NCBI RefSeq assembly: GCF_025370785.1
Contig: NZ_JAMXFA010000010.1
Coordinates: 101,921 to 165,920, forward strand
Length of the DNA: 64,000 bases
Direction of reading: 5' to 3'
Source: Laspinema olomoucense D3b
GTDB lineage: Bacteria > Cyanobacteriota > Cyanobacteriia > Cyanobacteriales > Laspinemataceae
Shown here: positions 55,070-62,212 of the stretch, in pieces
Layout: each line of letters starts with the position of its first letter
Numbering within the stretch: the stretch's first letter is position 1
Program-made: the position numbers and the translations under genes
The notes under the pieces: model-generated
Seen by the model: the letters and a program-made list of their open reading frames with translations, nothing else
The model's database searches: none
Told to the model about the DNA's origin: nothing

Positions 55070-56552
<1,483 letters not shown>

Positions 56553-56558
56553 TAGCCA

Positions 56559-56948
56559 TTACCGGGTAAACAAATTAGGAAACAAATATCTAAAACCTAA
56601 CACAAACAAGAAAGCACCATAGAGTTTTTTCATAAATTCACTACTGATAAAGGGTTGATTGGCAAATAAGGCTCCAAAATAATTGCCAATGAGTAAACCC
56701 AAAGCAATTACGGCTGCATATTTAAAGTTTAAATTGCCGTTTTTATAATAGACCATTGCGCCTAATAAGCCAATGGGTAAAATTTGAGCAGCAATAGAGG
56801 TCCCCGTTGCCAATTTTTGGTCTAATGTTAGTACAAGAACCATTGCGGGGACCATAATTGCACCCCCGCCAATGCCAAACATTCCACCGGCGATACCGGC
56901 AACTAATCCAATCACAAGCAGTTGAATTAACAGGGTAGACATGGCCAT
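56559..56948 (-). CDS. Half-size TSUP (TauE/SafE) family permease
   Basis: 129 residues, about half the family's usual size. Membrane segments near 5-35, 40-55 (weak), 68-90 and 100-122. The motif VGIAGGMFGIGGGAIMVPAMV (about 15-35) is the TSUP signature. Such half-size members probably pair to form the full permease; the family moves sulfite, sulfonates or other anions out of or into the cell. It lies just downstream of, and in the same orientation as, the full-length TSUP gene 75 bp away, which is likely its partner. Confidence 0.85.
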   Translation of the reverse strand: MAMSTLLIQLLVIGLVAGIAGGMFGIGGGAIMVPAMVLVLTLDQKLATGTSIAAQILPIGLLGAMVYYKNGNLNFKYAAVIALGLLIGNYFGALFANQPFISSEFMKKLYGAFLFVLGFRYLFPNLFTR

Positions 56949-57022
56949 TTATTTTATCAGGTTGGGGTTAGATTATCTCGCTTGGGGGACAATCGTCAAG
57001 AGCAAACAAATACTTTGGGTAT

Positions 57023-57823
57023 TTATACGATCGCGCTGACCAACCCTTGGCGCATCATGTACAAAGATAAGACAAATAGGATGAGGCGGAACAGGGTATT
57101 AATTAAGGTGGCGCTGAGGTGAGGGAGGAGGCGGGTTCCCAGTTGCACCCCGAGGATGCCACCGCAACCGATACATACACCGGGAATCCATAAAACATTG
57201 CCATTCCAGGCATATTGCGCTAAACCGGAAGCGGCGATCGCAGTGACAGCAGCGAGGGTTGTTGGGACGGCAGAGGCGATGGATTCTCCCAGGAGTAAGA
57301 CTTGTAAGGGAACCATGACAATGCCACCGCCAATCCCAAATAATCCGGCGATCGCACCCCCGAGACTCCCTATTTTGGCAAAATCCCACCGGGAACGGGT
57401 TTGATTTTTAACCAAGATGTCCGGAGAGTCTGAGTCAAGTAAACTGGCAAAAATTTCCGTATCAATTAGGGTTTTTCTTAATCCCATTAAATAAATAGCA
57501 CCTAATAATAATAGAGAAAAAGAAATAGCCAATGCACTATCAGGAATATGACGAGCCAGCCAAGCTCCAATTTGGACCGCCGGAACCCCGAATAGAGCAA
57601 TTTGCAACGCATTTCGCCAGTTTAGCTGCTTAGTCCAACTATATCGAATCGTGCCAGAAAGGGCGGTTAAAAATACCCCTATCAAACTGGTTGCGGCAGC
57701 AGTCACTACCGGAAACCCCCAGAAGTTTAAGAGGGGGACAATTAAAATACCACCGCCTAATCCAAACAATCCCGCCAGCAATCCAGTACAAATTCCCAAA
57801 GCGAACAGTATGGCTAAATTCAT
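57023..57823 (-). CDS. TSUP (TauE/SafE) family permease
   Basis: 266 residues with two repeated halves, each with the signature: GLLAGLFGLGGGILIVPLLNF (about 13-33) and AIAGLFGIGGGIVMVPLQVL (about 158-177). About eight membrane segments are seen. The family exports or imports small organic or sulfur anions across the inner membrane; the substrate is unknown. The half-size relative is next to it downstream. Confidence 0.9.
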   Translation of the reverse strand: MNLAILFALGICTGLLAGLFGLGGGILIVPLLNFWGFPVVTAAATSLIGVFLTALSGTIRYSWTKQLNWRNALQIALFGVPAVQIGAWLARHIPDSALAISFSLLLLGAIYLMGLRKTLIDTEIFASLLDSDSPDILVKNQTRSRWDFAKIGSLGGAIAGLFGIGGGIVMVPLQVLLLGESIASAVPTTLAAVTAIAASGLAQYAWNGNVLWIPGVCIGCGGILGVQLGTRLLPHLSATLINTLFRLILFVLSLYMMRQGLVSAIV

Positions 57824-57916
57824 TCAGGAAACTCCTTAAACCGGCGTTTTACTCTGCCATTATAGAAGTCTACAATGATGTATTCACTCCGTGGGTAAGC
57901 GGCGATACGTTTAAAT

Positions 57917-57996: not shown

Positions 57997-58794
57997 TTAC
58001 TCGGAATCGCGGTTAGTCAATTGCTCAACTCGTTCTCGGGTTAACCCCGTGACATTCATGATTTGTTCCACAGACATTCCACTAAGCAGTAGATTCCTGG
58101 CAATTTCGGCGATCGCTTCCTGGCGACCTTCCTGGCGACCTTCCTGGCGACCTTCCTGGCGACCTTCGGCTAAAATATCCTGATAAATGGGTGACTCACG
58201 CATAATGTCCCTCCGGAGAATCCTGTTAATTAACTCTCGATCTAATACTAACCCAGCTAGAACCGAAGAAGCAGCAACTAAATTTGCCTGTTGTTGTCGG
58301 TTGTCGATGCGTTCAATCAATTGAGCAACTTCGGTTAACACCTCCTCGGGATTTTCTGTGCGGGTTAAAGCAGCAAAGGGAAGTAATCCCGGTGCATTTA
58401 AAAACAGTTCGGTGGGTTGTTCCCATAGACGGATGACCTCAAACCGATGGGTCATTTGCGGGAGAATAAATTCGGTTTGATGGACCAATGGTGAGTTTGT
58501 TTTTCTGAGGTAAATCACCACCTGGCGCATATCTTTTTCCCGAAAGCGGCGATACCCGCGCAAGCGATAGTCAGCCATGCGAAAGGGAATCTCTTGATCC
58601 GGGTCGGTTTGGAATTCTATATGCAATACCGAGTCTTCAGACTGGAGGAGAATCAGAGAATCGGCGCGAATGGGTTCTACGGAGAGTTCTTTGGGACTCA
58701 AAATCGTTAAATCGATGGGTTTTCCCATCAACAAGGTGGCAAAGTCGCGGCTAAATTCATCAATCAGAAATCGACATAAGATATCGTAGGACAT
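57997..58794 (-). CDS. Rpn/transposase-like PD-(D/E)XK nuclease family protein
   Basis: 265 residues. The N-terminus has SYDILCRFLIDEFSRDFA and PIRADSLILLQSEDSVLHIEFQTDPD with the D and E-F-Q of the nuclease-like core (about 45-65), followed by RMADYRLRGYRRF and QVVIYLRK. It belongs to the Rpn (recombination-promoting nuclease) or DUF4351-associated group, related to transposases. The Ala/Ile-rich C-terminal part has a tandem (EGRQ) repeated four times (12-bp repeats at about 58108-58168), which is likely disordered and prone to slippage. A PIN-like role cannot be excluded. Confidence 0.83.
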   Translation of the reverse strand: MSYDILCRFLIDEFSRDFATLLMGKPIDLTILSPKELSVEPIRADSLILLQSEDSVLHIEFQTDPDQEIPFRMADYRLRGYRRFREKDMRQVVIYLRKTNSPLVHQTEFILPQMTHRFEVIRLWEQPTELFLNAPGLLPFAALTRTENPEEVLTEVAQLIERIDNRQQQANLVAASSVLAGLVLDRELINRILRRDIMRESPIYQDILAEGRQEGRQEGRQEGRQEAIAEIARNLLLSGMSVEQIMNVTGLTRERVEQLTNRDSE

Positions 58795-58856
58795 GATTTA
58801 AACCAATAGAAGTTGATGGAATTGGGTGCATCAGTAACCCAATTTTAGGCTCTGCC

Positions 58857-58915
58857 GCACCCCAGGGTTACATTCGGTCAATGAGTTGCATTCCTAATAA
58901 AAATAACTCCAGTTT
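58857..58915 (-). pseudogene. Duplicated fragment of the argS 3' end
   Basis: These 59 bases match the last codons and stop of argS (59088-59146) at about 90% identity. In the same frame they would read LLGMQLIDRM-stop compared with [10 protein letters not shown]-stop in argS. There is no gene upstream to continue it, so it is a relic of a duplication that accompanies the insertion described next. Confidence 0.8.
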
Positions 58916-58917
58916 AC

Positions 58918-59080
58918 TCGTGACGTGGCTCTGCCGCGTCATGCACTCTTTGCGGCTCTGCCGCCTGTACTTTTTGTGAGGATTTGAAGCCGTTACAGGT
59001 AAAATAGGCAACTTAAGACCCTGCTCCTGGACTGGAGGCAGAGCCTCCGAATTTCGTGACGCGGCAGAGCCACGTCACGA
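58918..59080. mobile_element. 163-bp non-autonomous element with 24-bp inverted ends
   Basis: Left end TCGTGACGTGGCTCTGCCGC... (58918-58941) and right end (59057-59080) are perfect inverted repeats of about 24 bp. Inside are further GGCTCTGCCGC copies (58951-58965) and the palindrome GGAGGCAGAGCCTCC (59035-59049). It has no gene. It lies between the duplicated argS fragment and the real argS end, so it probably was inserted with, or created, the duplication. Confidence 0.72.
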
Positions 59081-59098
59081 GGAAATTGCACCCCAGGG

Positions 59099-60856
59099 TT
59101 ACATCCGGTCAATGAGTTGGATGCCTAATAAAGACAACCCCAGTTTTAAGGTTTTTGCTGCTAAATCACAGAGCAATAACCGGGAGGTACGCTGCGGTTC
59201 TTCGGCTTGCAATACTGGACAGTTTTCATAAAACTGATTGAACTTCTTGCTGATTTGATAAAGGTACTCACAGAGACGATTAGGTAACAGCTCTTTTTCA
59301 ACTTCTTTGAGAACTTCACTCAAACTCAGGATATGTTTGGCTAAGGCTAATTCCGTTTCTTCTCCCAATTGAATCTGAATATCAGAACTGAGATTGTCGA
59401 AATCGATATTGCCTTGGCGACTGATTCCCTGAATCCGCACGAAGGCATAGAGCATATAGGGTGCGGTATTGCCTTGCAGGGAGAGCATTTTATCGTAGCT
59501 GAAGATATAACTACTGCTCCGATTTTGACTGAGATCGGCATATTTGACGGCACCAATTCCAACAACTCGGGAGACATTTTCGATGAATTCTACGCTTTCG
59601 GAACGGCCTTCTTCTTGGATAATACTTTCGAGTTGAGCGCGCGCACGGAGGACGGCTTCATCTAATAAATCCCGCAAGCGCACGGTGTCTCCTTCGCGGG
59701 TTTTAAGTTTTTTTCCGCCTTCTCCTAAAACTAATCCAAAAGGGACATGAACGACTTCAATATTGTCTGGAATCCAACCGGCGCGTCTAGCAACTTGGAA
59801 GAATTGAGCGAAGTGGGTGGATTGACCGCTATCGGTGACATAAATGATGCGATCGCATTTATCTTGTTGAATCCGATACCGCAATGCCGCTAAGTCAGTT
59901 GTGGCATAATTATATCCCCCATTAGTCTTCTGGACAATTAACGGTTGTGGTTCCCCTTCTTTGTTAGTAAATCCCTCTAAAAAGACGCATTTTGCACCCT
60001 GGTCTTCTACTAATAAGCCTTGGGTTTCTAAATCTTCAACCACCTTGGATAGGAACGGATTATAGAAGGATTCTCCTCGTTCAGTTAGCTGAATATCCAG
60101 CAAATTATAAATTTGTTGGAACTCCTGGCGGGATTGTTCGCACAGCAGTTCCCAGGCGCGGATTGCCTCGCGATCGCCTGCTTGCAATTTAACCACTTGT
60201 TGCCGAGAAATCTCCCGGAATTCCTCATCCTCATCAAAGCGCTGTTTCGCCTTCTTATAAAAAGCTACTAAATCCCCTAAATCCAACGCATTCGCCGTGG
60301 TTAAAGCATCCGGAGATACTTCCCGCAAATAAGTAATCAACATCCCAAATTGTGTCCCCCAATCTCCCACATGATTGAGGCGCAACACATCATGTCCCCA
60401 AAACTCTAAAATTCGCGCAATGCTATCTCCAATAATAGTAGAACGCAAATGTCCCACGTGCATTTCTTTAGCAATATTGGGACTAGAGAAATCCACAACC
60501 ACTCGTTGGGGATGACTCACGGGTTCAATTCCTAATCGTTCGTCCCCTTCAATGGCGGCGAGTTGCTGTTCTAAATAGCTAGTTTTTAGGGTAAAATTAA
60601 TAAATCCCGGTCCGGCAATTTCTGGCGGTTCACAAAATTCGGAGACATCGATATTGTCTATAATTTTTTGGGCAATATCGCGGGGTTTTTGTTTTAAAGG
60701 CTTTGCCAAAGACATCGCTAAATTTGCTTGATAATCGCCAAATTTGGGATTAGCGGTTGGCACTAAAACCGGGTCAGTTCCGGCCATTTCTTCCCCAAAT
60801 GCAGCAATTAGGGCTTTTTCTACTTGGTTTCTTAGCAGTTCGTTGGTTGATTTCAT
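59099..60856 (-). CDS. argS: Arginyl-tRNA synthetase
   Basis: Class I aminoacyl-tRNA synthetase that joins arginine to tRNA-Arg. Parts: N-terminal arginyl-specific domain (1-110, with the start [20 protein letters not shown]), the catalytic Rossmann fold with the HIGH-type motif [12 protein letters not shown] (about 130-141), [32 protein letters not shown], and the alpha-helical anticodon-binding domain with MLYAFVRIQ near 460. At 585 residues it is full length. The ATG at 60856 is chosen; a longer frame upstream (to 60931) overlaps the promoter region. Its final codons are duplicated in the following gap. Confidence 0.97.
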
Positions 60857-61060
60857 AAGACGCGATAAGATAGCAACTCCACAGGATTGACGCAATTTTT
60901 TGAGCAATCTAGTTCTGTCCCATCCTATCATTTCCTGCCAACAATGATGGATAAAGCTGGAGGAAAATGAGGTAGAGTAAAATGAAGGCGGTCAAGTCTT
61001 GATGTGCGATGTCACATTTCTGACGTGATTACCTCGAATCCTGCAACCACGACCAGAATC

Positions 61061-62212
61061 ATGAAAGACCTTGTTTTAATCGGTGGGGGTCATAGTCATG
61101 CGATCGCCTTGCGAGAGTTTGCCAAGTCTCCCCTCCTCGGAATTCGCATTACCTTAATTAGCGATGTGCTTCAGACTCCCTATTCGGGAATGTTACCCGG
61201 TTATTTGGCTGGGTTTTATACCTTTGATGAAGCACATATCGATTTGAGACCCCTGGCAAATTTAGCTCAAGCAGAATTCTATTGCGATCGCGCTATTGCT
61301 CTGGATTTACAACAAAACCAAGTCCTCTGTGCCAACCGTCCCCCCATCCCCTTTGATGTTCTCTCCATTGATATTGGTAGCACTCCGGCTACGCTCAATG
61401 TCCCCGGTGCCGCCACTTATGCCATTCCCGCTAAACCCGTTCCTAAATTATTAGAATCCTGGCAGCAATTCCGAGAAGAAGTTTTGCAATCCCCTGAGCA
61501 AATCCGCAGTTTAGCAACTGTAGGGGGGGGTGCGGGTGGGGTCGAATTAACCTTATCTATTCAAGCTCATCTTAACAAAATCTTAGCGCCACAATACCGG
61601 CAGAATATAGAATATCATCTCTTTCATAGCAGCAGTCACATTCTTTCCAGCCACAGTCAGTATGCCGCTAGAACATTAACCAAAATTATGCAGAATCGCG
61701 GAATTCACCTGCACCTCAACCAAACCGTTACCCAATTAAAAAAACAGACTTCAGAACGCCTAGAACTAAACTGTCAATCAGGATTAACCCTGGAGTGCGA
61801 TCGGATATTTTGGGTCACTCAAGCCGCTGCACCAGATTGGCTCTCGGCCTCTGGATTATCCACAGATAATCAGGGCTTTATCCAAGTCAATCACCACTTA
61901 CAATCCGTATCTCATCCTAACATTTTTGCCTCGGGAGATATTGCCACCCTGCTCAACAATCCCCGACCCAAAGCAGGAGTCTTTGCCGTGCGTCAGGGAA
62001 AACCTTTATTTGAAAACCTCTGCCGCCGTTTGCAGGATAAACCCTTAATTTCTTACCACCCCCAACAGCAATTTTTAACCTTAATTGGAACCGGAACTGG
62101 AAAGGCAGTTGCCTCCCGAGGGAGATTTGGGATAGGTCCGTTTCGGTTACTTTGGACTTGTAAAGATTGGATTGATCGGCGGTTTATGGAGGCGATCGCA
62201 CCCAAGGGTTAA
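61061..62212 (+). CDS. FAD-dependent NDH-2-like oxidoreductase (SelD-partner type without SelD)
   Basis: 384 residues. Two Rossmann folds: LIGGGHSHAIAL (about 4-15) for FAD and VGGGAGGVELTLSI (about 155-168) for NAD(P)H; the middle has QTPYSGMLPGYLAGF (about 40-54) and DLRPLANLAQAEFYCDRA, and the end has the ASGDIA and AGVFAVRQG motifs (FAD binding). In many cyanobacteria this oxidoreductase is fused to selenide-water dikinase SelD; here the gene stops after RRFMEAIAPKG with no SelD domain. A role in membrane NADH or quinone reduction is inferred from family. The ATG at 61061 is preferred to the upstream in-frame ATG at 61004. Confidence 0.85.
   Translation: MKDLVLIGGGHSHAIALREFAKSPLLGIRITLISDVLQTPYSGMLPGYLAGFYTFDEAHIDLRPLANLAQAEFYCDRAIALDLQQNQVLCANRPPIPFDVLSIDIGSTPATLNVPGAATYAIPAKPVPKLLESWQQFREEVLQSPEQIRSLATVGGGAGGVELTLSIQAHLNKILAPQYRQNIEYHLFHSSSHILSSHSQYAARTLTKIMQNRGIHLHLNQTVTQLKKQTSERLELNCQSGLTLECDRIFWVTQAAAPDWLSASGLSTDNQGFIQVNHHLQSVSHPNIFASGDIATLLNNPRPKAGVFAVRQGKPLFENLCRRLQDKPLISYHPQQQFLTLIGTGTGKAVASRGRFGIGPFRLLWTCKDWIDRRFMEAIAPKG

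Follow-up and report, generated by a model that had tools for sequence, protein, structure and literature searches.

Does the second 3' end of argS at this locus belong to the palindromic element that separates it from the gene, or did the two come together independently? The window (the whole 64,000-nt stretch of DNA analysed) holds the last bases of argS on both sides of an inverted-repeat element. The sequence-only reading had offered two accounts, either a non-autonomous element that targets the 3' end of argS and carries a copy restoring the gene, or replication slippage. We compared the locus with family copies and argS loci of congeners.

The two argS ends and the element between them

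The locus contains the following features.

57997-58794, minus strand: rpn-type gene, Rpn family recombination-promoting nuclease/putative transposase (TIGR01784, 116.8 bits against a cut-off of 52.1)
58818-58863, no strand: putative terminator-like inverted repeat GGGTGC...GCACCC (alignment with L033)
58857-58915, minus strand: distal copy of the argS 3' end, severed from the gene (repeat comparison, congener alignment)
58917-59081, plus strand: 165-bp element, long form of its family, with four hairpins (window-genome search, family alignment)
58917-58943, plus strand: left outer hairpin (sequence; conserved in the family alignment)
58952-58964, plus strand: left inner hairpin, GCGG type (palindrome-word count, family alignment)
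59034-59048, plus strand: right inner hairpin, GGAGG type (palindrome-word count, family alignment)
59055-59081, plus strand: right outer hairpin, inverted relative to the left outer one (inverted-repeat search, family alignment)
59088-59146, minus strand: proximal copy, the working argS 3' end, with 15 codons, stop and 11 bp beyond (repeat comparison, ORF list)
59099-60931, minus strand: intact argS (ORF list; relatives in 39 of 39 genomes, the window genome included)

Along the plus strand, the order is the rpn-type gene (minus strand), the terminator-like hairpin, the distal argS end, the element, the working argS end and the rest of argS (minus strand). The argS end does occur twice around the element, as had been claimed: 58857-58915 and 59088-59146 form a direct repeat of 59 nt, with 53/59 positions identical and a start-to-start spacing of 231. 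The proximal 59-mer has no further ungapped match with at least 38 identities on either strand of the whole window. Either copy is composed of 15 codons (45 coding nt), the stop codon and 11 nt past the stop. The argS stop codon lies at 59099-59101 on the minus strand; therefore 59088-59146 is the working gene end and 58857-58915 the spare. The distal copy carries two amino-acid-changing differences (G to E and S to F) that are absent from the seven congeners. The proximal copy differs from its counterpart in G003 at third codon positions alone, and the 11 bp past the stop are identical in the proximal and distal copies. The GGGTGC...GCACCC inverted repeat stands behind argS in element-free congeners and behind the distal copy in the window. 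The rpn-type gene has zero Pfam matches; at 58120-58175 it contains an in-frame 12-bp tandem repeat (RQEG repeats in the protein), the length of which varies among congeners.

The inverted-repeat element is real, and the figures first given for it, 163 bp with 24-bp inverted ends, were close, but it is better described as 165 bp with 32-nt arms. These arms, 58910-58941 and 59057-59088, are 94% complementary. The word GGCTCTGCC occurs five times in the window, always inside 58848-59071, whereas 100 shuffles contain it 0.28 times on average. Moreover, the single-strand fold of 58840-59160 is far stronger than the folds of shuffles, both as DNA (z -7.02) and as RNA of the minus strand (z -6.46). 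Rfam 15 covariance models gave 0 matches up to E 1 within 58500-59500.

The repeat family and its flanks

A search for further copies of the ends, which the sequence-only reading had proposed, returned 53 element matches at E≤0.001 in the window genome, several of them covering ends only and some falling two per copy. The element was rightly taken for a dispersed, geneless one with inverted ends and numerous relatives: all eight genomes of the genus, the window genome included, match it at E≤1e-20, and no ORF of at least 100 aa spans any of the 36 long copies examined. Of 243 genomes sampled from the order, 15 give a match at E≤1e-8, eight from the genus, six from a second genus and one from a third. 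The exact end pattern was found in two contigs of named genomes, Laspinema palackyanum D2a and Oscillatoria sp. HE19RPO. Identical copies are present in G003 and G002, so that these are probably the two organisms, and the genus is probably Laspinema. In another genus, G089 has an 87% identical long copy (L111), and five further matching genomes of that genus match over one end alone, a contrast that suggests a recent transfer.

The family exists as the 165-bp form with four hairpins (two outer, two inner), as a form of ~110 bp, of which 25 copies of 97-124 bp were tested, and as solo hairpins of ~30 bp, with 41 pattern matches over eight genomes against 1 for a backward control. Many short copies (flanks of L009, L017, L018, L027 and L029) lie inside long GGGGAGGAT-type simple repeats. 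The L074 copy is inserted into another abundant palindromic repeat of the genus, of the GCCTGCCTCCGCAGGC type, which was the source of most extra matches of one search.

Flanks and gene context were analysed for 36 long copies from 40 placed loci; left out were L073, which occupies the site of L062, the partial copies L078 and L081, and L067, close to the end of a contig. The family alignment omitted L073, L078, L081, L110, L076 and L012 and added L111, L115 and L116; the tree and the arm-similarity test used 35 rows after L115 and L116 were dropped as duplicates. Twenty-nine of the 36 copies lie between genes of the same direction, four between convergent and two between divergent genes, and one was not judgeable. 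The proposal that the element targets gene 3' ends holds in part. Long copies favour sites just past stop codons: with each site counted once, the upstream stop is closer than the following start at 17 of 19 same-direction sites, the median distances being 46 bp to the stop and 156 bp to the start. A carried gene-end copy, in contrast, is unsupported. This placement would be expected from a preference at insertion as well as from selection against damage to promoters.

In the flank test, the 150 bp left of each long copy were compared with the 150 bp right of it (n = 36), and comparisons between copies served as the null. The argS copy (L001) has the sole long direct repeat that hugs the element, with a score of 41 against a null 99th percentile of 13; its p value is 0.001 and not lower because the between-copy null also contains L061, whose argS sequences are related. 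Of the remaining long copies (n = 35), L108 reaches 23 through a different kind of repeat, 21 and 52 bp off the element, L077 scores 13, L083 scores 11 and the remainder at most 9. Flanking repeats at L074, L076, L106 and L110 are inverted rather than direct, as are weaker ones at L077 and L108. None of the 25 short copies has a hugging gene-end repeat, and one forms a tandem array (L120). The search for other gene-3'-end duplications beside family copies, likewise proposed earlier, thus found none among 35 other long and 25 short copies. The argS-end duplication is not a family trait, and the idea that the element carries a gene 3' end and restores the gene finds no support, with a hugging direct repeat at 1 of 36 long copies and a gene-end repeat at 0 of 25 short ones. 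The repeat family can be told apart from a rearrangement that resembled its signature.

As a separate observation, a weak and diverged 36-nt direct repeat surrounds the short copy at L114:1440-1710 (G021), 6 and 42 bp away from it, in a divergent intergenic region and with no gene end.

Order of events and source of the second argS end

The argS loci of relatives had been named as a further comparison, and one of them is informative. G004 has the element on the same side of argS and in the same orientation, but without the second argS end, which argues against the gene-end copy being part of the element. The six other congeners have no family element behind argS, and G001 and G005 have other insertions there. 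In the tree, the elements next to argS in the window and in G004 pair as sisters, with support of 100/96 among 35 copies (bootstrap values that the program itself calls rough), and are 90.5% identical, the next best copy reaching 86.7%. Since the two are sisters in the same orientation, the duplication is separate from the insertion. In G004, AATT stands at both element junctions, inside an argS terminator arm that is intact in G003 (read from the letters), and AAATT adjoins the window element at its argS-side junction. The simplest reading is that the element inserted first and that the second argS end arrived later in the window lineage. The patchy occurrence of the argS element may reflect either loss in several lineages or passage between the lineages of the window genome (G000) and G004.

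Beyond the element, the ancestry of the sequence appears to change, which adds one feature.

57997-58915, no strand: tract (rpn, terminator, distal argS end) of displaced ancestry, ending at the element edge (distance and tree tests; far boundary ~57.8-58.0 kb)

Excess was defined as the distance of the window genome to G002-G005 minus the distance within G002-G005. It is +2.12% (1.29 to 2.98) for argS, -0.52% (-1.35 to 0.36) for the tract and +1.50% (0.82 to 2.19) for 55080-57900. Against G002-G004 only, it is +3.83% for the neighbouring gene at 61000-62200, +0.97% farther upstream at 62201-68500 and -0.90% (-1.80 to 0.08) for the tract, and a sliding scan with these three genomes drops below zero at ~58.0 kb and rises above it again over the duplication. 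By distance excess, the window genome lies inside the four-congener group in the tract and outside it on either side. In the trees, G000 and G003 are the best pair in the tract (85/92), whereas AU tests reject this pairing to either side of the tract (p 0.018 and 0.0036); tract and pairing were picked after the identities were known. The closest sequences to the distal copy, the terminator and rpn are those of G003 and G002. A clade of G002-G005 without the window genome is rejected nowhere (p 0.142, 0.094 and 0.445; 0.094 in the tract). Site counts for rival parents in the tract give no signal for G004 (27/48) or G005 (24/45). For G007 there is a signal (78/100), with a best interval at 58116-59216 reached by 0/100 shuffles, where the G007 branch is long. 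Four states of the proximal copy are unlike those of G003 and the distal copy, and three of them are present in other congeners; these three are uninformative because 72 of 108 argS differences from G003 are also shared with other congeners. The tract support of 85/92 is not strong.

The second argS end probably, though far from certainly, stems from a later, partly illegitimate recombination with DNA of a relative after the element had inserted. A REPIN/MITE-like element would first have inserted behind argS. An element-free fragment of ~1 kb from a relative near G002-G005, with rpn, the terminator of argS and the final 59 bp of the argS end on it, would then have entered the window lineage and replaced the sequence beyond the element. 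One end of the fragment would have recombined homologously at ~57.8-58.0 kb, while the other would have been attached almost or wholly without homology to the element's outer edge, at 58915/58916, where by eye the microhomology is at most 2-3 nt. The argS gene would have retained its own 3' end, and the donor end, stranded beyond the element, would have started to decay. This course resembles homology-facilitated illegitimate recombination, in which incoming DNA has one homologous and one non-homologous end (PMC3240628). It differs from that process in that the argS case is inferred from a fixed natural locus instead of an observed event and has little microhomology. Natural transformation is plausible in such cyanobacteria: it is reported in Phormidium lacuna, and the table of predicted competence factors in that study includes O. 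acuminata PCC 6304 (PMC7292380). The argS locus offers a natural case in which an illegitimate joint at a palindrome can be ordered against congeners.

Recombination of an element-bearing with an element-free version of the locus is likelier than duplication in place, though not proven to be the cause. Replication slippage, the second of the original suggestions, is possible but doubtful and fits less well. A fork would stall at the hairpin and the new strand slip back into argS, recopying the end and the terminator and skipping the hairpin, after which the ends would diverge and the spare decay. The family hairpins do undergo slippage-like change, as seen in solos compared with full elements, in the likeness of arms within copies and in the tandem array L120. 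The amino-acid changes of the distal copy, the purely third-position differences between the proximal copy and G003, and the identical 11 bp past both stops also agree with a spare that arose in place. Duplication in place, however, requires that the element be skipped when the region is copied again and that the terminator next to the first copy be lost independently, and it does not predict a displaced ancestry of rpn and terminator that ends at the joint.

That the insertion itself doubled 59 bp of argS as a long target-site duplication is quite unlikely. Removing the element and one copy does restore the G003 arrangement, but such a repeat is absent in 35 of 35 other long copies, the insertion of the sister element in G004 can be read as flanked by a 4-bp AATT repeat in the terminator arm, and G004 would later have had to lose one copy. 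An assembly artefact uniting two alleles or a contaminant is very improbable: the genome is a draft of 104 contigs and strong hairpins are difficult to sequence, but the locus lies well inside a 179,850-bp contig with the genes on either side in congener order.

Kinship, mobility and change of the family

By its anatomy, the family is REPIN- or MITE-like, and the adjoining rearrangement is ordinary though instructive. The small dispersed repeats of Nostoc, reportedly treated by Elhai and others in 2008, are likewise short, mobile-looking intergenic repeats of cyanobacteria; the likeness is one of general description. No description of the family was found in the portion of the open-access literature covered, where papers matching its sequence words were unrelated by title.

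In the alignment of long copies, a pair of inverted palindromes encloses a spacer, a unit that recurs in intergenic DNA. The family shares this build, together with many copies, tandem clusters and remnant-like singlets, with REPINs (PMC3116915), but its outer hairpins measure ~27-30 bp, its spacer holds two more hairpins, and the window genome and G007 are without a Y1 gene. The copies are also short, non-coding and dispersed, with terminal inverted repeats and no transposase of their own, like MITEs, cyanobacterial ones included (PMC10969869); in contrast to these, no parent transposon was found among the ends searched and no consistent target duplication was seen. Short flanking repeats at long copies are inconsistent, with AATT at argS in G004, and congeners are too divergent for clean empty sites. 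GTAG- and CGTC-tagged REPs are short extragenic palindromes often located behind genes, and CGTC elements too are without a dedicated transposase (PMC3733652). In contrast to them, the family has a stem exceeding the 8-9 bp of CGTC families, and no unpaired GTAG or CGTC tag was recognised at the hairpin foot when family copies were read by eye. The five phyla reported to have CGTC repeats do not include Cyanobacteria (PMC3733652).

The Y1 (RAYT-type) transposase domain PF01797 gave 0 matches in the window genome and in G007, both of which hold long copies, and such a transposase was rejected as the mover in the window genome. PF01797 matches occur in six of the eight genomes of the genus, and no convincing family ends were found at four inspected loci of the 18 matches listed. 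The family bears on the RAYT-free persistence of REPIN-like elements, two of eight genomes having long copies and no Y1 match. Among the ends listed for the window genome and the exact end matches in G004, none could be recognised as framing an autonomous transposon. The sole IS-sized pair of exact ends in G004, at L117, was rejected as an autonomous parent: there (L117:839-2358, G004:C1:1902838-1904357), the right outer hairpin of a short copy is interrupted by an IS4-like transposon, with 80.2 bits in NCBIfam (below the cut-off of 115) and Pfam DDE_Tnp_1 likewise below its cut-off. GGCAGAGCC stands on either side of this insert, perhaps as its target duplication. At L085, a pair of ends ~797 bp apart frames two small ORFs. 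A wider conjecture, speculative and on the whole unlikely, is that the family would spread without a RAYT, its palindromes stalling or breaking replicating DNA, its edges joining foreign ends and its elements remaking themselves (arm homogenisation, solos, arrays); the second argS end would be a captured product.

Where G004 has the long copy L068, a solo hairpin stands in G002, and the long copy L007 of the window genome corresponds to a solo hairpin in G003, G006 and G007. Solos look like deletions between 7-nt direct repeats present in both outer hairpins. At L082, L084, L104 and L107, the compared congener stretches have no family element, and their intergenic DNA is too diverged for a clean empty site. 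In addition, left and right ends are more alike within a copy than between copies: over 35 copies the mean score is 19.63, compared with 16.67 after partners are shuffled, and 0 of 20,000 shuffles reach the observed value. The result is the same for 23 sites represented by a single copy each. Arm homogenisation of this kind is known to result from template switching at imperfect palindromes (PMC7202029, PMC8604942). At L120:506-989 (G004:C1:3138300-3139800), four nearly identical short forms with their flanks stand head to tail at a spacing of 125 bp. Finally, L006/L072/L075/L105, L005/L103 and L003/L064 each occupy the same intergenic region across congeners and are long copies that are not mutual closest in the tree, as if these regions had been re-occupied or overwritten.
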